From Hexactinellida sp. DTS-2022 (taxonomy: Eukaryota; Porifera; Hexactinellida), in contig JAPNXP010000014.1 in the NCBI GenBank assembly GCA_028753945.1, positions 3,968,001 to 4,032,000 of the forward strand: a DNA stretch of 64,000 nt, given 5' to 3'. This document shows, one piece after another, positions 15,280-62,140 of this stretch. A program made the position numbers and the translations under genes. How positions within the stretch are numbered: the first letter of the stretch is position 1; the number at the start of each line of letters is the position of its first letter. The notes below the pieces were generated by a model that was not told the origin of the DNA, did no database searches, and saw only the letters and a program-made list of their open reading frames with translations.

Positions 15280-16192
15280 CTATATCAGATAAATCATGTC
15301 TTCAGATACCATTAGTTGATTACACGCTTGCATTTTGGACAAAAGATTTAGCATAGTTTCACGAGTATACGTTTCACTCTGAGTGACATTATTAATGAAA
15401 GAAAGTAGTTCGCTGACTTTCATCAATTGAGTGTGTTTTTCAGAAAAAGTAAGGAAAACCAATCCTTTAAACGTATCAAATTCTTGCTCAGAAACAAGAT
15501 TGGATAATATTGCAATTGATTCGCAATTCGATGAAGTGGTACTTTCTTGATTATTAAAATTACTTGAGAAATGTGAGGATAAATTCGTTTCTCCAGCGCT
15601 TTTTGAAACTATAGTTTCATTACTTTTCCTATCAACTTGAGTTTTTATATGCAACTCTTTAAAATAAGCAAAATTTATCATAGAAATAGCAGCATATACA
15701 TCAATAGAGTCAATGTTTCTATTAATGCGAGATTTTGCATGCGCTGTAGATAGTCTGATCAATGATTCAAGAGTGCGCGCAGTAATAGGTTGAGTTTTTG
15801 CAATATTATGTTGGGTGATATCCTGGGTTCTAAGCCTTGTATATTCTGTCGATATCAAATCGCAAGCCGCCGATGTCAACGTAGGTTTTAAAGCACGAGC
15901 AACTTGGAGATATTTTGCAAAAAAAGTATGAGAAAACACTCTGCTATCCGAAGAAAGAATTTGTTCGCCATGAAGTAACTCATTATAGTCTTCGAAAACA
16001 TTTTCAGTACTACCTGAATCCGGTAATAAATTAAATGAACTAATTGAAAAGTTGTTAAACGAATCAAACCTAATAGGTTCTCCATCTGACTCTAAATCGG
16101 ATCTGAATCGATGCATTCTAATAACATGTTCTGCAATTCGTTTGTCGCTTTCAACTTCAACAGTATCAAGTAAGATGAAGATTAAATCAAAT
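15280..16192 (-). CDS. MCM3: MCM3 terminal exon (arginine finger to C-terminus)
   Basis: This last coding exon starts after acceptor TTCTAG (AG at 16194-16193). Its first base completes the Arg of the SRF arginine finger. It continues FDLIFILLD and HVIRMHRF, typical of MCM3, then the lid and C-terminal winged-helix region. ITARTLESLIRLSTAHAKSR is the sensor-2 helix region. The protein ends in MVSEDMIYLI, close to the conserved MCM3 terminus, with TAG at 15282-15280. About 303 codons agrees with the usual length of this part of MCM3, so nothing seems missing. The middle (NNFSISSFNLLPDSGSTENV) is a low-complexity linker where MCM3 proteins vary. The 913-nt exon carries no stop or frameshift. 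Confidence 0.95.
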
Positions 16193-16890
16193 CTAGAAAA
16201 TGTAATCTTAGAAATAAATGATTGATAATCAAATAAAAATACTTTTAAAATACAATAAGTATACAAAAGTATTAGAAACACAATTTTTGTTGATAATAAA
16301 TGTGGCCAGCGAGCAGATACAATAAGTAAGATAACTGAGCATATAATAATTGGATCACTCCGACGACAGTGCCCGGATAAGGTAAATTAAATTGTGAAAA
16401 TTGGCATTGAAATTTTTGATCAAATTTAGACAATAATTTGTTAATAACTCAAAGAATATTATTCGCATAAAATTTCATTCTAATAACGAAGTAAGGCAGT
16501 ACGCGAAAGAACACAACCACACCTCAAACGCTTTGTCGTTGTAATGTAGTTTCATACTTCTCAATCTAAATATTAAAAGCACAATCAATTGTTGTCTGTG
16601 TGTGTGTGATTGTTTGTTTGTCCAGAATTAATAGGAATGACCATTAACTTTAATAATCAGAAAATTAGCATTGCAAGGATAATTTTACACGCTGACAACG
16701 ATCTTTTGGCTTTCTTAACGAAATAACAGGATTATGACATCATAAAATCACATATTTTGGCATTATTATTTCAGTTTTTATCCGATTCGCCCACAATATT
16801 AAATGGGAAGACAAAACGAAATAAGACACACAAACAAATTTATGGGATTGTGAAATCACATAGGAACTATTTGGATTTAGCTGTTAAGCC
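16193..16890. other. MCM3 intron sequence beside the last exon
   Basis: AT-rich intron. The first bases on the MCM3 side form the acceptor of the terminal exon. No other gene or convincing repeat was seen before the MITE starting near 16893. Confidence 0.5.
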
Positions 16891-24941: not shown

Positions 24942-26158
24942 TAATGCATTCTGTAGTAATCCATTGGTGATGAAATTATTCACTCATCCCAGCAGGGATT
25001 CACATTAAAGTTTTCATATATTTCCGAAAAATATGCATCATTGATTTGAATGAACATAATTAAAATTTTATAAATTGCTATTCGGGCAGTGAATATAATA
25101 TATAATATTGCGTCGAAATAACGACGATTGAAAAAGTTTTCGCCAATTTCAAATAGTTTAAAATCAACAATAAATCAAATAATTTAGATTTAGATTTTTT
25201 CCAATCATTGTTTTTACTCTCTCAGCTCCTAATTAACACCATTTAGTCATTAAAGTGCAGAAAACAGTACTAATACTGTTTTCTTCCCCCTGACAAAACA
25301 GATCATAATGGCACTAGGTTCGGGGAAAGGTATTGGCCATGTCCCAAGTGTTTCCGTTCTATTTATAGAACATTCTTGATGGATCGACCAATACTTTAGG
25401 GCTATAGGATTGTTCGGAGATAATACTGTCAGAACGATCTTCAATGCGAATTAAATAAAGTTATATAGAATAATGATTATCCCAATGTCTAATAATTATG
25501 TTGTACATGAATATTCTTCCATATCTTCACGAAGCTTTAGTATTTTCAACTTTAGATAGTGTTTTATTCTAATACAATACTGCAATTTTTGTATTATATT
25601 TTACTACTATAATTGAACTGTCCTAAACAAATTGACTTGTTGATTATTTTAATCTTAGTGAATTGACTTAAATAAATGCAAACACACAAACAGAAAACTA
25701 CGTTATTACATCTATCAATAAACACCAATAACATTATTTGGCGCAAATGGCTTTTTTAAAGAGAATTTTCGTAACGCCATAATGATTTGAAGCTTTACAT
25801 CAAGCGCCATTAGTATATATAAAGAAAAATAACTGTAATATAAACATATTTTGATTGCAAGTACTAAATGCGGTATAACCGTAATTCACAACGATTATCA
25901 CATAAACAAGTCGATACAACATAATTACTTTAGAAACTTCATATCACTAGCTATAAATACAGTAAGTTAGACAAATTATTCGCTCCACACCAAAATGTCA
26001 TTAATTATTTAATTAATTAATTATATATTTTGGAATGATAACTACAATATAGTGTCTAACGCTACCCAAACTAGTTGAATCATTAACTGTTGATTGCTGT
26101 CATTTTCTTATGCACTTTCTTCATTTGTTCAGATTGCCCCTATCGAACATTATTTTGG
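24942..26158. other. No gene seen
   Basis: AT-rich intron sequence between the ZMYM1-type hAT and the Transib-carrying MITE. Nothing recognisable on either strand. Confidence 0.45.
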
Positions 26159-26234
26159 ACTGCACCCAGGGGCGTTCTGGCCATACAATCAATGCGGGAT
26201 TCCCGCTCGGGCCCCCCTTTTGGGGCCGCTTTAG

Positions 26235-26261
26235 CACAGTGGTTTATTGACAGGGAGTGGG
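26235..26261 (+). repeat. Left RSS-like terminus of Transib copy 1 (10-bp spacer)
   Basis: Heptamer CACAGTG at 26235-26241, spacer GTTTATTGAC, then AGGGAGTGGG from 26252. The transposase presumably binds the inner block and cuts at the heptamer border. Confidence 0.8.
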
Positions 26262-26807
26262 ACAATTTTTTACCTATTGTGATCTCCTCAAAAACTTTTT
26301 ATCGGGTTCAGCATAATCGAGAACCTAGGTAACTATTTTTACAGTTAAAAATTCCAAGTAAAATTAGAAATATGATGCAGTGTCTATGGATGAATGGCTA
26401 ATTATAATTGAAGAAATTTTGAGGTTAATAATTATTCATCAGTTCATGCTCGTGTATCTCAGTAGGTTTCTATCAGATAGTGCTAATACTTTCACAGTGT
26501 TTAATTATAGTTTAAATCATCCTAAAACTATTGAATACTCTTTATATAATTGATTGTCCGTTAGTATAATTATCATTGCAAAATATGATTAGCTGGAAGT
26601 GTCCGAACTGTCAAATTCCTTTATTGGTATTGCGAAAACTGTCGTGTCGTGTCGTGTCGTATTAGTAGCCCTGTTTTTATATAAAGTTTAACTATATAGC
26701 TACCCCGCGCAAATGGAAATATTACTGTATACAAATGCCCGCTATAAATATTACATACAAATCAATTGTATACTTGTATTACGTAAATAGCTTTCCTCTG
26801 TTTCGAA

Positions 26808-28190
26808 ATGAATAATCGAGACGCTTGGGATCATCTCTCAACTAAGGAGTCAATACGTGTTGCTGTTCTGGCATTTATGCAAGAATTCCAAATCGAAGAG
26901 AATGAATATGAACCAATTCGACATAAATTTAATATCCTTCAAACTACCAGAGATTCTTCGAGAAAGCTAAAAAAATTGGAAGAGTGGGAAAACAAAACTT
27001 TTTTAAATATTCCATCAGCGGAACCCACAAAGAAGCGAATTATGGCGGATAAAGTAATCGTTGAGTCTGATCTATCCATGGAAACAATAAAGCCTTTATC
27101 TCAATTAACCTTAAAAGCCTTACGAGCAAGGCTTAATCCGCTTTTAAATTTAATCGACTCTTTCGCGACCAAAGAAGAAGTTGACCCGAAAATAATTGCC
27201 ACCTACGCTCTAATGCTCATATCTAATCTTTCTAGAGATGTAAATACTACTAGTGTTTGCAAACAAATTATAGCAAAGGGGTCATTTGTAAGTGAAATTA
27301 ATTCCATGCCTATTGATAAGTCAGCATTCTTGCTTGACCTCCTTGAAATAGGAAGGCGAAAATACACCAACTTTAAGCGGCTTTGTAAATCCGAAAACAT
27401 CGTATTCCCATCCTATTCAAAACTCGCACAATATCGACATAACGTTCACCTAACTAATGAGTTAGTATTCGTTCATAATGAGATGAATGTAGCGATTGGT
27501 ATTGCAGTATCTTATAAACGCATCCTACACCATAGTTTGACACGCTTGTTCGAAACAATTCCTCCTCTATCTGATTCCCAATTTCCTTTAACTATCAAAA
27601 TTGCCGACGGCCTTGATGGCTCAGGGTGTCATCAAATTTACAACCAATATGAATTAAACCCAACACCAAGTACAAAAAACTACATCTTGTTCGCGTTTAA
27701 ACTACTCTCCATTATGGATTCAGAAAACAATCAAGTGTGGATAAATAACATCCCGAATTCGCAATTTGGAGTTAGGCCTGTTCTATTAACGGCACAGAAG
27801 GAGTCCATCCTTAACGTCAAGTTTATCATGGAAAAGATTATCAACCCAGAAGTGAACACAATTGAACAATTGGGTTTACAGTTCCCACAAGGTTACGTTC
27901 ATGTAAAGATCATTCGTAGTATGCTTGATGGAAAAATGTGTGGGATTTTAAGTGGGGCTGGAGGTGCGCACTGTCAATTATGTACGGCAAGCATCAAAGA
28001 CATTAAAGACATTGAAATGATTAGAGCTGGTTTTCCGATTAACAGACATATTTCTGACGCGAAAGAACTTTTCGAATACGTTGACAAGGATGAGTATCTT
28101 AGCCTTCCATCCAAACAAAGGTTAGGAATAACCCATGAACCAATCTCGGAGATAAACATTATGGCAGCTTTCGATGGTATATGCTATTAA
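26808..28190 (+). pseudogene. RAG1-like/Transib transposase, N-terminal and first catalytic part
   Basis: A 460-codon frame for the DDE recombinase that would excise and insert the surrounding element. Residues 265-280 read IADGLDGSGCHQIYNQ; Asp270 aligns with the first catalytic Asp of RAG1 (CDGMG-type motif), the best guess for D1. Near residue 390, GAHCQLCTAS gives the CxxC pair matching RAG1 (ICTLC). THEPISEINI near the end matches the region just before the second catalytic Asp of RAG1. The frame then stops at GICY; the coding sense continues in the next frame at 28181 (RWYMLLIYHL), so a small deletion or frameshift removed the D2 segment. The N-terminal ~180 residues are helical and match nothing I know. 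The start Met is the first in the frame. Confidence 0.82.
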
Positions 28191-28918
28191 TATATCATTT
28201 ACAATCTGGAAGATTGATATGGTCACCTACATCAAAACAGATTGTCACTGCAAGAAAATTTTGTAGTGAATTTCTTTACGAAAAAACGGGTTTGAGGATT
28301 GATCAGCCCTCAAGTGATGGTGGAACAACTTCAACCGGAAATGTCGCTAGACAATGTTTTTTAAACAAGAACAATTTTATATTCCATGCAACTACACATG
28401 TTCCAGTCGAAACTAGAGATGAATTAATTCTCATTCAAAATAATCTCTCTGTAATTTTAAGGATATTTAACAGCAGCGACGAAATTGATACTGAGAAATT
28501 GGAAACTCTAGACAAGGGAACTTACGAACTCATTATCACCGCTTTTCCTTGGGCCAACATAACACCTTCTCTACACAAGCTACTAGCCCACTGTACTGAA
28601 TTGATACGGGACTGTAATGATGGCTACGGGTTAAAAGAATATTCAGAAGAAGCGGTAGAGGCTTGTAATAAGCTAATTCGACGGTTTAGAGAACATCTCT
28701 CTCGAAAAAATTCTTTTACGTCCAATATCAAAGATGTATTTACCCGTCTTCTTAGTCAGAGTGACCCCGTCCTCTCAAGTTTCCGAAGAGCCCTAGTGTG
28801 TAAGCATTGTGGTAGAATAGGGCATATTCGGAATATGAAATGTAAAGGTAACCAAGTGGTAACTTTAGAACAGGATAAACTAGTTAACTCTCTCATGCTC
28901 CAAAATCTTAATATTTAA
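28181..28918 (+). pseudogene. RAG1-like/Transib transposase, C-terminal part
   Basis: This continues the transposase after the frame break. Around residues 125-170 it reads TPSLHKLLAHCTELI, then GLKEYSEEAVEACNKLIRRF. This matches the RAG1 segment ending SEGNESGNKLFRRFRK; Glu160 (28658-28660) aligns with the third catalytic residue. The end carries a CCHC-type zinc knuckle, CKHCGRIGHIRNMKC. The frame is open to its natural stop at 28918. Together with the upstream frame the protein would be about 700 residues, the length of a Transib transposase. No RAG2-like partner frame is present. Confidence 0.84.
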
Positions 28919-29179
28919 ATTAGTATGATGCCCTAGTGTAGCTCATATTAGTCGCAATTTAGTTATTTGGAATTTTTTTATGTATTTATTTTCTTAATTT
29001 GTGTAATATAAAAAATATTTATGAAAAGAGAGAATTAAATAATTGGTGTAAAAATTAAATGACGTCACAACTCAAAAGTCTGGAGCCATACAAGTATTGT
29101 GAGTTCATTAATCGATTTCTAGGTAGGGATAACCCATATGTAAATAATACAATTCAATGACCTATCTGCTCGGGAAACC

Positions 29180-29215
29180 CCCACTCCCTATGAATGCCCC
29201 AAATAAACCACTGTG
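29180..29215 (-). repeat. Right RSS-like terminus of Transib copy 1 (19-bp spacer)
   Basis: On the minus strand: heptamer CACAGTG (29215-29209), a 19-bp spacer beginning GTTTATTT, then AGGGAGTGG. Confidence 0.8.
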
Positions 29216-29312
29216 TTTAAGGCCCCTTGTGGGACCGCAGGCCCCCACTGCGATACTTTCTGAATGGAATCCCGCCTGGGCCCCCTAATGCCAGCACGCC
29301 CCTGACTGTACC

Positions 29313-30205: not shown

Positions 30206-30643
30206 TATACGAAATTGCGTATCCAACAATCATGATTATAATATTATTTCCAACATGAAAACAGTTGTACGGTATACTGTATTTGTCGGAATGTATAAAA
30301 AATTCAGAAAAAGTGAACGACCGAGATTAATTTCGGCCGAAACTTTCGGCCGAAATTTCGGTTTCGGTTTCGGCCGAATTTCGGTATCGGTGGCTTCACC
30401 GAAATCATGCTAAATTGATGATATTATAATGCTTTTGAATAAGCAAAGAATACTTATCAAGTGTGCTAAATAAACATTCAACAGACACAATCTACATAGT
30501 CTTTTAATTGGTAAACCATAGATGTGCAATGCCATTGCCCAAATAGTCTTTCAATTGGTAAACCATAGTACAAATATGAGTCTTTGAATCGTATTATCGT
30601 ATTCATAAATTATCCGCCGTGTACTCGATTCTTAATTAGCAAT

Positions 30644-30973
30644 ATGTCCAGTAATCGTTCTCCACTTTGGCAATTCTTTTCAATCAGTGCAGTTGATAAA
30701 AAATTTGTTGTTTGCAAATTTTGTAGTGTAAACATTTCTCGTGGCTCTGAGGATCCAAAAAAGCAAACTACTTCTGGTATGAAAACCCATATGTTATCTA
30801 AACATCCAGTTGAATTTAAGGAGCCAATCTATTTGACTCAAGCAACTTCGGCTCAAAGTGAACTAAATATAAAAAATACTCCAGAACTATCGAGGAATGA
30901 GGATTCAATCTTCAATATACGGTCTAAAGGCAGAGAATTGATCTATTTGAGACAACTATTCCTGATTGGGTAG
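30644..30973 (+). pseudogene. hAT transposase N-terminus (BED finger)
   Basis: The start chosen is the Met of MSSNRSPLWQFF, just before the BED zinc finger. Zinc ligands: VVCKFCSVN (CxxC) and MKTHMLSKH (HxxxxH). The frame shifts out near 30930-30973 and the protein continues in the frame that opens before 31039. A BED finger binds DNA, here presumably the TTTCGG-rich ends. Confidence 0.82.
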
Positions 30974-31038
30974 AGAGTAAAACAGTTTGGGATTTCAACA
31001 GCGAAAAGGCTCAAAGACTACATAAGTCGGTATTTGAA

Positions 31039-32535
31039 ATGATTGTTTTGGATCTTATGCCGTGGTCAACAGTTAATAAACCTGGTTTTCTACGGAATCA
31101 AAAGCTATCCACTCCTAATTTTGAACTGGCATCCGAGAAGTACTACCGTGATATGCTCGGTCCAAGTTATTTTAAGATAAAAACAGCACTAAAGAATAAG
31201 TTAGAAGTTGACAATCCAATAGTTGTTTCTCTAGCATTGGATGCTTGGTCAGCCCATCATCATGGTTATTTAGGAATTATTATTCATTATATCAGTGACT
31301 GGCATCGTAAAAGTTTTCATATTTCCTGTGTTCCATTCGATGAACGCCACACTGCACAAAACATTTATAAAAAAATAGAAGATGTTATTTTAGAATGGGA
31401 TATAATTAACAAAGTTCAACTATGCCTTCGCGATAATGCTCGAAATGTAACAGCAGCGTTCAATGAGCCTAATTGTTTGCTAAAATCTTCTCCTTGTCTC
31501 AAACATTCCCTCCAGTTAGTGATCAAACGTGAATTATTCTCAATGACAAGTGTAGAATCGTTAATTAAAAAGTGTAGAAAGCTATGTACACATGCAAATC
31601 ACTCCAATATATTATATTCCGAATTCTACAAACAGCAGGAAAAACAGATGGGAATATCTCGTCGATTATCTCTTATTCAAGATATAGATACCAGATGGAA
31701 CAGTACATATTACATGCTCCAAAGATTTATCTATCTCAAGCCTGCAATTGCCGCTACTTTATTAGAAATTGATTTAGATATCGAGTTCTCATCTGCTGAA
31801 TGGACACTGTGTGACAAAATAGTCACATGTCTAAAGTGTTTTGAAGAGGCAACAAAGTTGTTATCTTCGAAAGAAGCATCAATCAGCTCAACTATTCCCT
31901 TTGTATTTACAATCATACGTGCTTTAGAAACAACAACTGAAGATCTTGGAATAATGAGAATGAAAAACAGACTCAAAGGTGCTATGATTGAAAGATTTAG
32001 AGACATTGAGAACTGCGAGCATTATTATCTCTCCTGTTTACTTGATCCACGATATAAGAAATATTTCTTCAAAGATAAATCAAATTTTCAACATGCAAGA
32101 TCTGTGCTAATTTCTAAAGTAGCGAATTCTATTAATTCATCTTCTGAATCTCCAAGATGCGATGACAAAGTTACAGCTGATCAACAGGATCTTTCTTTCA
32201 CAAGTTTAATGGAGATAATAATAGCAGAGAACGAAGTAAGTCAATGTACTAGTACTTGCCAGGACCATTCATTTACTAATGCAAAAGACACAGTTGACAA
32301 ATATCTAAATGCTACTGTAACTGAGGAATGTTTGGAATTCTGGAAAGAATATTCAAAATCAACAAATCTTTACGAAAAGAAACTAGCTGAACAAGCATTA
32401 TTATATCTTACTCCACCACCGACTACCACTGATGTCGAACGTTTATTTTCAACAGCTGGTGACATTGTAACCGATGAAAGGAACAGATTACTACCAGCAA
32501 ATGCGGAAAAAATATTGTTTTGTCGAGAAAACTGA
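31039..32535 (+). pseudogene. hAT transposase catalytic and dimerisation domains
   Basis: About 498 codons follow the BED part after one frameshift. IVVSLALDAWSAHHHGYLGI holds the first catalytic Asp, LRDNARNVTAAF the second region, CLKHSLQLVIK the typical C/H helix, and DIDTRWNSTYYMLQRF the RW motif. The hATC dimerisation domain at the end reads LYLTPPPTTTDVERLFSTAG, DERNRLLP. This frame is open over its whole length, so only the upstream break keeps the element from encoding a complete ZBED-like transposase. The age of the copy is probably young. Confidence 0.9.
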
Positions 32536-34383: not shown

Positions 34384-34572
34384 GTCACTCGTATAGAATA
34401 CAGACTAATCGAAAAAAATCAAAAAATCAATACATATAAAATATAATAGGAAAAGTCCCATTAGGCGTATAAATCAGATAAAAACAATGATCATAAAGGC
34501 GACTTCAAATTTTGGATGAAAACTTGATTGATCATGGCCATTTATGAGATAAAACTATTAAATACATAATTA

Positions 34573-35749
<1,177 letters not shown>

Positions 35750-36583: not shown

Positions 36584-36611
36584 CACAGTGGCTTAACACC
36601 AGGAAATAGAG
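36584..36611 (+). repeat. Left RSS-like terminus of Transib copy 2 (10-bp spacer)
   Basis: Heptamer CACAGTG at 36584-36590, spacer GCTTAACACC, block AGGAAATAGA from 36601, then a run of A. Confidence 0.82.
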
Positions 36612-37329
36612 AAAAAAGTCATGATCATATTTTGACTTGTTTTAATTGCTAATTATTCTAAACTGTTTAAATAGCACACAGTTAAAATTTGAAGTCAATT
36701 GAGTACCTATAAGTCTCATAAATCGAAACCAAAGATTTCTAAAATTCAATAACATTTTGTGGTTACGAATATTTCTTAAATAAGCACTATGTAAAATAGC
36801 TCATCAAAGTTTAGCCAAGCATGTTATTCTTATGAAAACTTGTACAGTAGATAATTCAAGCTTTCTGAATCAGAATATTTGATTATCTCGACTGAAAATT
36901 GAAAAGATTTTTCTGAAATAACATTTTTTAACTCAACTGGTCTAAAGAACAGTTTATTTTTTCAAAAAAATATTCCGAGTGTTCGGGAAAAAAATAGTCA
37001 GAGATAGACAAGCCAATATTAATACATGTTCATGACCAATGTCATCACTAGTTAAATACAAAAAAACTGGCCCCCGAAACAGTGCGCAAGACAATAATTA
37101 TAGCCACATTCCATTCTCGTATTTCGGTTGCTATGTAAATACCATATACTAAGTATTGCTGTCATGTAATTAAATACACCATAAATTTATCACCAATCAA
37201 CCACTGATGTGGTTTGTCTTGTATTTATATACATAGTTCTAACTACATTTTAACACAAATACTTAATCATTTAATCAAGCATTTATTTGTTGTTCCACTC
37301 ATGGCTAAATTTTAACTGTTCCCAAAACC

Positions 37330-38306
37330 CGGCTTGATCTGGCAAAAATCTTGAAGAGCAATGATTATAATATCGACGAAACAATTTCAGATCTTGGACA
37401 TCTTGATTTAGATGAAGTTAAGAAAGATTGTTTGCATGCTACTCTCCGCAGAATACGTGATAATGTCAGAAAAGCTAAAAATACTTTAAATAGTTTGGAT
37501 GGTGATTGGTGGAATTCAGAAATTTCTCTGGAGCCTCAAACGACAAAATTATCAATTTCTCTTCCTGATATTACTAATACAGTTGAAAAATCTCTACACC
37601 ATAGGAAGAATATAGATTAGCTTTCCCTGAAACAACAACGATCACGCCTCTCAAGTGTACTAGAAGCATTATTATAGAGTTACTTTCAAAAATTGAAAAC
37701 ACCTCAAAAGTAAAGATAGCTACCCTTGCATTGCAAATATTATCTAACGAGGAAAACAACAAAAAGGTTTCTCAAATATCCAAATCAATTGTCTCTGACA
37801 ATTTCAGCGGCCGCTTTGGGAATCTTGTAAAGAAAGAGCTTGAAGTCGACAAGGGATTATTCCTTATAGATTTATTGGAAATCGGAAAGAGGAAATATAC
37901 ACAATTGCGCCAGCATTTGTTAACTAGCGATATTCATTTTCCAGCATTTCAAAGAGTAGCTGAGCATAGAAATGCGATAATAATACGTCCTGTAATTCAA
38001 CTCTACCCAAATCCTACATCTCCTATCGGCGTAAGTGTACCATACGCACAGTATGTCCAACATACCTTTTCAAGAATATTACAAACCATTGCCTCTCCTC
38101 CCAAAGAAGATTTTCCATTGATTTATAGAATCGCAGACGGCTTAGATGGTTCTGGGAGCCATACTGTATATAACCAACTGAGCACAAACACAGAAACAAA
38201 ATGTTTAATACTTTATTGTTTCAAACCTATTCAAATCACGTCTTGCTCCGGAAAATTATTGTGGAAAAACAACTCCCCTAATTCTCCATTTTACCAAAGA
38301 CTTTAG
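37330..38306 (+). pseudogene. Truncated RAG1-like/Transib transposase of copy 2
   Basis: The coding sense runs from about 37330 (LAKILKSNDYNIDETISDLG) through a stop at 37618-37620. After at least one frame change it continues as KKELEVDKGLFLIDLLEIGK and RKYTQLRQHL. It then reads YRIADGLDGSGSHTVYNQ, with the D1 Asp in the same place as in the 26808 frame, and NNSPNSPF before ending at 38306. Sequence between the two copies is well diverged outside these blocks (LLDLLEIGRRKYT versus LIDLLEIGKRKYT), so they are different subfamilies. The D2 and Glu blocks are deleted. Confidence 0.85.
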
Positions 38307-38698
38307 ATTTCTCAAGTATCATATAGCACAAATAGATTACATATATGTAATTGTGATCACGCTAAAAATTTTGTAAAGAATAAAAAATTATGCAAATAAT
38401 AAAATAACACAAATTTTAGGATGACGTCATAACTGGCAAATTAGAACCCATACGAAAATTTTGAAATTGTCAAAAGTTTCTAAATATCCGAAAACCTATA
38501 TGTAAATAATACACAGTATTAAGCTAACTCCAAAGAATTAGCAGATTTGAGAATTCTAAAAAAATTGTGAAATCATCATGACGTCATAACAGACAAAGTA
38601 TGTGCTGTATCTAAATTTCGATATGATCAATCAGTTTCTAAACATCGATAACCCATATGCAAATAATACATTATATTATGCTAAAGTGCACACATATA

Positions 38699-38734
38699 TC
38701 TATTCCCTACCAACTGCGATTTTAAGCCACTGTG
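38699..38734 (-). repeat. Right RSS-like terminus of Transib copy 2 (19-bp spacer)
   Basis: On the minus strand: heptamer CACAGTG (38734-38728), a 19-bp spacer starting GCTTAAAATC, then AGGGAATAGA. Confidence 0.82.
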
Positions 38735-48441: not shown

Positions 48442-48900
48442 TCAAGGTATCAAATCATGCACTGTGAAGTTTGCTTCATCATCTAATTCAAAAGAATCTA
48501 TATCATCGATACTGAAAGTGCTGTTGGCATTAATAAAGTCAGTATTGAAATGTGTCAAGTTAGAAATATTCAACTCAAATGTTGGAACGACCGGAGACAA
48601 AGTAATATGCGGAGAATGTACTGGTGTACTATTTGCGAATGGCATAAAAGTATTGTTATTAATATTAATACAGTTTACTTCAGCAACTGATATCTGTTCA
48701 TTTTCGTTAGGGGATATATTTGAGTGACAAGATGTGCAATACCAATCAATATTCCTCTCTTCGCGAACAGCCTGGCGATATACATCCTGAGAAACGCCAG
48801 TTCCGCAAATTCTATGAATCCAACGTCCACAAGGTTCACATTGTAAACCCTGTTGTCTGGGTGTCACACGTTTTCCACAGTGGATGCATAATTCTGACAT
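48442..48900 (-). CDS. PHD-finger protein of the MULE element
   Basis: A 152-codon intact frame starting MSELCIHCGKR. Residues 5-58 form a C4HC3 PHD-type finger: Cys5, Cys8, Cys21, Cys24, His29, Cys32, Cys55 and Cys58, with Trp53 before the last pair as in PHD fingers. The rest is an acidic, Asn/Ser-rich tail ending DEANFTVHDLIP. PHD fingers usually read histone H3 tails; in a transposon this could target insertion, which is inference. The downstream MULE frames suggest this is the first exon of the transposase gene rather than a host gene. Confidence 0.75.
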   Translation of the reverse strand: MSELCIHCGKRVTPRQQGLQCEPCGRWIHRICGTGVSQDVYRQAVREERNIDWYCTSCHSNISPNENEQISVAEVNCININNNTFMPFANSTPVHSPHITLSPVVPTFELNISNLTHFNTDFINANSTFSIDDIDSFELDDEANFTVHDLIP

Positions 48901-60755: not shown

Positions 60756-61509
60756 GAATTAAAGTCTAAGTGGAAATACGAGATTTTTCGTAATATGAAT
60801 AATTGTTAATTGGATTCCTTTCAATCGGAGGTCTACGAGTAAATAATAAAAAATTATAAAAATATTAATAGCAATCAGATGCAGGACTTTATTGTGCAAA
60901 AGATACAATTTTTATTAGTTTAAAAATACATTATTTTAGTGTTGGTCTATACTAATTGTCAAATGTTGGCAAAAAATTACGGAATGAAATATGGATATCG
61001 AGTATTCGGTATCGACAGTTTGATACGCACAATTCAATGCATAATAAACTTTGCACATATCTGTTCCATAAAGAGCCCATAGACAGGTATATTTGCACAC
61101 ATTTAGTCGAGCCAACCTCTCTTTCCTCCTCTCTCAATGCCAATAAATTATAACCCCCAGTGTCTGTTGTTTGTGATGTAACACATAAAGCCATTATCTT
61201 TCGATTATTACGACCTTTACTTGAATATATGATCGAAATTAAGCTGGGGTCCGGTGGGCAATAAATTTATTGATACATTGATTTAATTGACCAAAATATT
61301 AAATTATTTATCACGTTTGTTATGATGAAGTTGAAACCACCTAACTCTGTAAAAAATTATACATAGGGTTTAGAGTTTTCTATGTACATAATTATAGCAA
61401 CGAATGGTACCGCATTGAATTGTATCGTACAGTCGGTATTCCTAGATAAATATAACTCAATTTTTAAAGAACATAATAAATACGTATATTATTGCCAATT
61501 TAAACCTAC
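60756..61509. other. MCM3 intron, donor side; no gene seen
   Basis: AT-rich sequence just inside the 26-kb intron. The donor GTAGGT is at 61509-61504. Nothing else recognised. Confidence 0.45.
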
Positions 61510-61889
61510 CTATAAGCAAAATATTGATATCTCCGCGAAGTCTTGTGCCATTTTGTAAAGTTTTTTCGACACCACCTAACAATAAACAGAGAATAGCACT
61601 CTTAACAAACTGTAATCCAGATAAAGAAGGAGCAATTGAATTGGAAAGTAAATCAAATATGTTCGGTAGGTTACTAATACGACGAATTTTAGATACATCT
61701 TCAGAAGATAATTGAGGGTTCTCATCTCTAGAAACCCGAATGTTATTAACAATAATCACAGTGCGAAATGATGCTGAGGTATATCCAGACTTTTTATATG
61801 GAATTGAACGATAAACTCCATAAAGGTAAACACGATCACCAGCTCTAGCACAATCAACCAAATCCTCCTCCAAAATTACTTCAATTGAT
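61510..61889 (-). CDS. MCM3: MCM3 exon (N-terminal/OB-fold end, leading into the AAA+ domain)
   Basis: This internal exon encodes the end of the N-terminal domain of the MCM3 subunit of the MCM2-7 replicative helicase. Seen: RSIEVILEEDLVD, GDRVYLYGVYRS and the linker GDINILLIG directly before Walker A, all matching metazoan MCM3. The acceptor AG is at 61891-61890 and leaves a phase-2 start (one base completing an Arg codon). The donor is ATAG|GTAGGT, with GT at 61509-61508, phase 1. The split Gly codon joins exactly to the exon starting at 34988. Upstream exons (start codon, zinc-binding region) were not found to 64000 and are probably outside the window. Reading on past the exon ends gives unrelated residues, as expected of intron. 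No frameshift or stop was seen. Confidence 0.93.
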
Positions 61890-62140
61890 CTAACGACAAT
61901 GATAAAAAATCTGAGTTTGTGCCGACAGCATGGAGCACAATATTTTAGGAAGTCAGTATAATGGCTGCAAAAACATGCAGTCTGTACAGAAGTAAGATAT
62001 ATCGAAATAGTCTCATTGAGCACTAAATGCATTAATTATTCTCCGATTATAACGAATAATTAGATATAACGAAGCAATTTATAGGTCCCAAGCACTTCGT
62101 TATAAGGAGAGTTTACTGTATAAATAAATATAGGACTAAT

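Follow-up and report, generated by a model that had tools for sequence, protein, structure and literature searches.

An extract of PMC8355894 argues that few transposons show the 12/23 asymmetry and that its recognition requires RAG2; it also mentions, after Kapitonov and Jurka, 12/23-like Transibs in Drosophila and Anopheles. Asymmetric terminal inverted repeats (TIRs) have been described in all members of Subgroup I Transibs, and the ends of the RAG-like (RAGL) transposon AanRAGL of Aureococcus anophagefferens consist of a 13-bp element, a 4- or 13-bp space and a 10-bp element (PMC9435367). The ends of HzTransib (PDB 6pqn, 6pqx) are called symmetric in an extract of PMC8289069, which gives the amphioxus transposon ProtoRAG a 27/31 spacing and a preference for unequal pairs; a passage of PMC7204232 expects invertebrate RAGL systems to be rather insensitive to asymmetry. 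Here we describe a Transib-type DNA transposon from a glass sponge (Hexactinellida sp. DTS-2022), at positions 26235-29215 of a 64,000-nucleotide stretch of contig JAPNXP010000014.1 (hereafter the window), and its relatives in the 112.4-Mb genome. Each of its ends carries the heptamer CACAGTG and, further in, a second 10-bp block, placed at unequal distances on the two sides.

The register recurs in AanRAGL, where the distances from heptamer to block, computed from the published layout, are likewise 10 and 19 bp and where 5-bp duplications are also made. Its block, CCTCAA[C/T]A[C/T]G, has A5, A8 and G10 in common with the consensus found here, about NNNRAATAGG, and allows T7, but differs at G9; AanRAGL differs further in carrying RAG1L and RAG2L genes, in a first element beginning CACACCC rather than CACAGTG, and in the kingdom of its host. 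Vertebrate RAG1/RAG2 shares with the sponge elements the consensus heptamer CACAGTG, two block spacings about one turn apart, an NBD (nonamer-binding domain) and the fold of the catalytic core. Its spacers, however, are 12/23 instead of 9-10/19-20, the element described here has no RAG2 gene and its kind transposes, as the 5-bp duplications show, and the block is not the A-rich V(D)J nonamer, printed as ACAAAAACC in the extract of PMC8289069. ProtoRAG (6b40) has two-part asymmetric ends and a related transposase (E 9.8e-18), but according to the same extract it combines the 27/31 spacing with the heptamer CACTATG and the block GCCATCTTG and acts with RAG2L.

Unequal ends are therefore already known in Subgroup I Transibs and the 10/19 register is known, by computation, in AanRAGL. 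An earlier reading of the window, made from the sequence only, knew of no report of such spacing in Transib; asymmetric ends had in fact been published (PMC9435367, and PMC8355894 as far as the extract goes). What is new is a series of many lineages within a single genome in which the unequal spacing hardly changes and the second block co-varies. In open-licence PubMed Central (PMC) full text we found no report of such a series or of this family in glass sponges, and no paper that brings a glass sponge together with Transib; no glass sponge is named in the text or legends of PMC9435367.

Ends of the window element and spacing across the genome

The element is 2981 bp long, lies on the plus strand and contains a broken gene; its assignment draws on its ends, its open reading frames (ORFs), a PDB match to HzTransib and copies elsewhere. 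Direct reading and pattern matching agree with the sequence-only reading of its ends. The left heptamer CACAGTG (26235-26241, +) is followed by a 10-bp spacer (26242-26251, +), also recovered by the register search described below, and by the block AGGGAGTGGG (26252-26261, +); on the minus strand, the right heptamer CACAGTG (29209-29215) is followed by a 19-bp spacer (29190-29208) and again by AGGGAGTGGG (29180-29189). The common sequence extends beyond the heptamer, reading CACAGTGGTTTATT at both ends. The flanking pentamers, TTTAG on the left (26230-26234) and TTTAA on the right (29216-29220), fit a target-site duplication (TSD) with one mismatch.

CACAGTG by itself is weak evidence for ends: it occurs 11 times in the window against 4.06 expected, and four of the 11 occurrences are the ends of two Transib elements. 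At up to one mismatch AGGGAGTGGG has two sites in the whole window, which are the two ends of the element, and with 1.45 chance matches expected at that looseness the block carries no significance by itself. Chance does not account for the two-part signal, because the exact left-end pattern has three genome sites including the window's own, and none in the reversed control, while the subfamily pattern CACAGTGGTTTATT-N(0-28)-AGGRAGTDGG has 74 genome matches, and again none in the control. The other copies with the exact left end are on C2 and C12.

The genome holds many relatives, with at least 99 matches to a protein search and at least 40 to each of the DNA searches with the left and the right end, in which the best 40 candidates were scored. 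Spacers of the 74 subfamily ends measure 10 bp in 36, 19 bp in 37 and 20 bp in one. A broader pattern, CACAGTGG-N(4-32)-GAAATAGG, has 419 matches (control, 0); among the 100 of these listed, in contig order, 96 have a spacer of 9 (7), 10 (33), 19 (29) or 20 bp (27), and the outliers of 12, 14, 17 and 18 bp occur once each. Convergent neighbours, less than 9 kb apart in the subfamily list and less than 6 kb in the broader one, always join a short to a long end: 25 of 25 subfamily pairs are 10/19 and 18 of 18 pairs among the 100 broader matches are short/long, giving 43 of 43 with none equal, although these are not 43 independent events, since many derive from a small number of founders by recent duplication. 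Ends without a convergent neighbour in the lists number 24 for the subfamily and 64 for the broader pattern, and four close neighbour pairs of the broader list that do not converge were left out of the element count.

Thirty loci cut around left-end matches (L034-L063) gave 23 copies with both ends, which are non-autonomous, form one family and measure about 1060 bp. Of these, 22 are 10/19, one is 10/18, and 21 have exact 5-bp duplications. The seven others gave no right end. Three (L034-L036) are the window element and two long copies, with right ends beyond the fetched stretch, and in L039, L041, L060 and L061 none was found in the stretch cut around the left-end match. The condition set to refute the sequence-only reading, random spacing or equal pairs as common as unequal ones, does not hold in these counts, which favour that reading. 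It should be noted that elements inherit their ends as pairs, and unequal pairs in a genome are not an assay of pairing preference. The TSDs are not clearly GC-rich (42% GC over 41 duplications), and a preference for GC-rich targets was set aside. No relative was confirmed in bacterial and viral collections, where 74 and 73 pattern matches had no tblastn support.

The surroundings of the ends show further traits. A/T tracts often lie just inside the blocks, AAAAATTT-like at left ends (for example at 26262-26275 of the window) and TATTT-like at right ends; they are a possible bend or host-factor site. The flanks of the window element (26150-26234 and 29216-29305) are GC-rich and, by eye, in part inverted copies of each other, so that a further, palindromic repeat may enclose the element; its 120-bp flanks match neither the other collected loci nor the rest of the window.

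Spacer length and second block across lineages

We examined 39 transposase loci for ends (L004-L033, L064-L072), of which 23 gave a pair and 16 none within the fetched stretch. Ends were paired by heptamer, by inverted match and, where possible, by duplication, in a search that itself required CAC; the ends of L005 are the second-ranked candidate, chosen by eye for family resemblance. The window element is L004 (win1), and the addition of a second element of the window (win2, 36584-38734) brings the set to 24 paired elements. An exact 5-bp duplication flanks 20 of them, the window element has its one mismatch, and L005, L019 and L030 have none exact. When every combination of spacers was tried in a register search, the two ends differ by 9 bp in 15 elements, by 10 bp in six and by other values in three. 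A chance match of the blocks is not borne out, since differences of 9 or 10 bp, seen here in 21 of 24, arise in 3.75% of cases on shuffled sequence. The exceptions are L018, with a difference of 14 and a left end that lacks 4 bp found in its relative L016, and L064 and L071, whose blocks are weak.

Spacing goes with lineage and is 10/19, 10/20 or 9/19. The 9-bp left spacers belong to L070-L072 and the 20-bp right spacers to L016, L019 and L022, and the members of each set are neighbours in the transposase tree, win2 (10/19) falling within the group of L070-L072. Because spacing differs by lineage, the feature that hardly varies is the 9-10 bp difference between the ends and not exactly 10/19. 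The earlier interpretation survives in part, as regards a RAG1-related, Transib-type transposon with non-random spacing, and yields on the exact figures as it did on the lack of precedent.

For the comparison of blocks we used 17 lineage representatives, in which the spacings of L030, L064 and L071 were set by eye and from which L018, an L016-type copy with a deletion, was left out. CACAGTG stands at both ends in 16 of the 17, the right end of L022 reading CACAGCG. The last part of the block is steady (AATAGG-like), whereas its first four bases vary by lineage (AGGG, TGGA, GCTG, GTCG and TTCG, for example). At these four bases the two ends of the same element agree in 58 of 68 comparisons, against a mean of 28.7 and a maximum of 48 in 20,000 re-pairings. 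Positions 9-13 agree as well (73/85 versus 34.5 permuted), as do the 3 bp preceding the block (32/51 versus 16.0), with no excess over chance in the 4 bp beyond it (16/68 versus 15.5). Matched blocks are expected if a single protein must read both ends; exchange from end to end could contribute.

The length of the spacers can be set against their sequence. The 23 non-autonomous copies, which lie 1.7% from their consensus, record 61 indel events and 418 substitutions, a ratio of 0.146. Between lineages the sequence of the spacers has been replaced to a large extent (mean p-distance 0.63 left, 0.49 right), and the tree demands at least 53 substitutions in the left spacer and at least 78 in the right, from which at least 7.7 and 11.4 indels are predicted. 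The tree has two length changes on the left and one on the right, of one base each, that is, three where at least 19.1 are expected (Poisson P for three or fewer, 6.9e-6), an estimate that uses a hand-copied topology without L009, L065 and L067, the by-eye spacings of L030, L064 and L071, and no L018. A constraint on spacing is well supported.

The transposase and a model of end recognition

Two overlapping plus-strand ORFs are pieces of one transposase gene. The first (26808-28190, 460 aa) comprises the N-terminal region, an NBD-like region and the regions of the first two catalytic Asp residues; the second, in a different frame (28181-28918, 245 aa), contains a C-terminal knuckle and the SEEAVEACNK region, where RAG1 leads us to expect the catalytic Glu. 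The RAG1-like motifs quoted in the earlier reading are present in these ORFs, and both match HzTransib (6pqn), with E values of 5.4e-9 and 9.2e-18; the second also matches ProtoRAG RAG1L (4e-5) and, with 0.004 at best, vertebrate RAG1. A Pfam search at the limits set here gave nothing in the first ORF. The Asp codons at 27606-27608 (in DGLDGSG) and 27927-27929 (in LDGKM), both on the plus strand and invariant in alignment A1, would encode the first and second catalytic Asp, by alignment with RAG1 and HzTransib. The window copy is broken, as 28 gap bases relative to copies L008 and L005 in the stretch of the second ORF, a frame shift and the loss of SPLH.Y, a segment that does not vary in alignment A1, attest.

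Some relatives have ORFs of 708-751 aa (L006, L007, L011, L012, L013, L032, L064-L067, L070-L072). In nine of nine intact elements examined no second stop-to-stop frame exceeds 123 aa, although no search of the genome was aimed at the RAG2 family, and the window element has, besides the two transposase pieces, just frames of up to 80 aa. The family thus has the single gene of a Transib, with a RAG1-core-like DDE transposase; a RAGL transposon with RAG1L and RAG2L together was considered and rejected.

The region at 27081-27287 (+; coordinates set by eye from the translation) is homologous, through its relatives, to the NBD of RAG1: a profile of 13 family members has its best match in the RAG1 NBD (3gna, E 4.3e-4), and a fold comparison was also made. 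In HzTransib, residue 8 of the solved chain aligns at profile position 168, beyond this region. The CTT1-like knuckle CKHCGRIGHIRNMKC (28799-28843, +), read from the translation, has a zf-CCHC E value of 0.12, below the cut-off; it is present in the window copy and in seven of 13 relatives having a C-terminus, some of them near-identical copies, and absent in six. Subgroup I Transibs, compared by their text description in PMC9435367, have an NBD equivalent, a CTT1 tail and a segment of the zinc domain that HzTransib lacks. The elements here share their asymmetric TIRs and have a counterpart of the NBD in the NBD-like region; the knuckle of the copies just named is a possible counterpart of the tail. 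The zinc-domain segment (alpha11-alpha12), compared as one stretch, may correspond to profile positions 407-454, 48 positions that face 13 HzTransib residues and align throughout in ProtoRAG RAG1L.

Based on the above data, these elements are Transib cut-and-paste transposons. Their transposase probably reads both heptamer and block, and we propose that it grips the block with its NBD and, as a dimer, synapses a short with a long end in the absence of RAG2. Each end would be read twice, at CACAGTG and the next few bases, where the cut is made, and then at the block, which resembles NNNRAATAGG and follows after 9-10 bp on the left and 19-20 bp on the right. The catalytic core of two transposase molecules would hold the heptamers, while their N-terminal, NBD-homologous domains would form a dimer that holds the blocks and, being tilted, reaches one block about one helical turn further off. 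Such a dimer would be built to synapse one short- and one long-spaced end. The tilted hold mirrors the known hold of RAG on 12/23 signals. The model explains the near-constant unequal spacing, the matched blocks and the retention of the NBD. Comparison at the level of sequence establishes, for this family, two-part ends with 5-bp duplications, an unequal spacing that hardly varies, matched blocks, an NBD-like domain in the relatives, the RAG1/Transib catalytic core and the lack of a RAG2-sized second gene in intact elements. From these, the transposase itself most likely sets the spacing, its NBD is a plausible reader of the block, and we infer that short/long synapsis is preferred.

The unequal spacing could instead be a frozen accident, in which the right end of an ancestor was 9-10 bp longer and its descendants kept it without functional demand. 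The lineages do share one ancestor, and the non-autonomous family, with its 1.7% divergence, is young; yet spacer sequence has turned over while length has barely moved, and the block still matches its partner end lineage by lineage, which makes such an accident unlikely. A different objection comes from the right spacer, where GGC and TT columns are conserved at 1.05-1.36 bits in the 17 lineages without a left-end counterpart, within a stretch whose consensus is near TGGCAATT (in the window, 29190-29208, -). This conserved stretch speaks against the spacer being a mere length. It could mark left from right, bound by the transposase or by a host factor, the longer spacing providing the room, and ProtoRAG, in the extract of PMC8289069, also favours 5'/3' pairs and has end-specific spacer elements. 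As a full account this remains somewhat doubtful, for it explains neither the retention of the block at both ends with a 9-10 bp difference nor the tight left spacing; the mark and a spacing set by the transposase are not mutually exclusive.

A further question is which part of the transposase reads the block. The C-terminal tail, with its CTT1 knuckle, would be a candidate in place of the NBD-like domain, given that the CTT* of amphioxus ProtoRAG is required for cleavage and aids specific end binding (PMC8289069, in the same extract). The knuckle, however, is absent in six of the 13 relatives; among the six are L064, which has a weak block, and L032 and L066, whose 10/19 ends are clear. The NBD-like region, in contrast, could be aligned in 13 of 13 sequences, which were chosen for covering it. 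The knuckle is accordingly disfavoured, and reading of the block by it or by another part outside the NBD is unlikely.

More tentatively, the 12/23 rule may have had a RAG2-free forerunner, a one-protein transposase with an NBD-set 10/19-20 rule. That rule would predate the separation of Transib from RAG-like transposons, because the register is common to a Transib of an animal and a RAGL of an alga, and transposase and block would here have changed together while the rule was kept. The sponge elements make the origin of the 12/23 rule in antibody-gene assembly testable. The genome supplies 17 lineage representatives with diverged transposases, several intact genes and, in nearly all, the same unequal spacing, so that it can be tested in vitro whether short/long pairing is enforced by a transposase that has no RAG2 and whether the block is read by the NBD of such a transposase. 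What has been argued from evolution about the 12/23 rule thereby becomes testable, on a real feature that is a strong case of a known kind.

The second element and other features of the window

The second Transib-type element (36584-38734, +) is decayed and belongs to another lineage, that of L070-L072 in the tree. It is flanked by the duplication CATTA/CATTA and has a 10/19 spacing, with the left block AGGAAATAGA (36601-36610, +) 10 bp behind the heptamer at 36584-36590 and the right block AGGGAATAGA (38699-38708, -) 19 bp behind the heptamer at 38728-38734. Pfam, at the limits used, gave nothing in its ORF.

Both Transib elements lie on the strand opposite to the MCM3 exons around them. Consecutive pieces matching MCM profiles, all on the minus strand, lie at 61457-62032, 34570-35046 and 15280-16281, the MCM3 winged helix coming last; they are apparently one MCM3 gene of about 47 kb, in which gaps of about 26 and 18 kb contain the two elements. 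These gaps are long introns for a 112-Mb genome. The window also contains a hAT-type transposase (30584-32535, +), in which one ORF has a BED zinc finger and another the hAT dimerisation region, an OTU-like cysteine protease ORF (269-949, -) and an ORF with a PHD/C1-type finger (48442-48900, -), both finger scores of which are just under the cut-off. Of 66 homologues found among the 7994 scored candidates, those with most words in common, 11 carry a name, in every case that of the glass sponge Oopsacas minuta. The GC content of the window is 33-38%.
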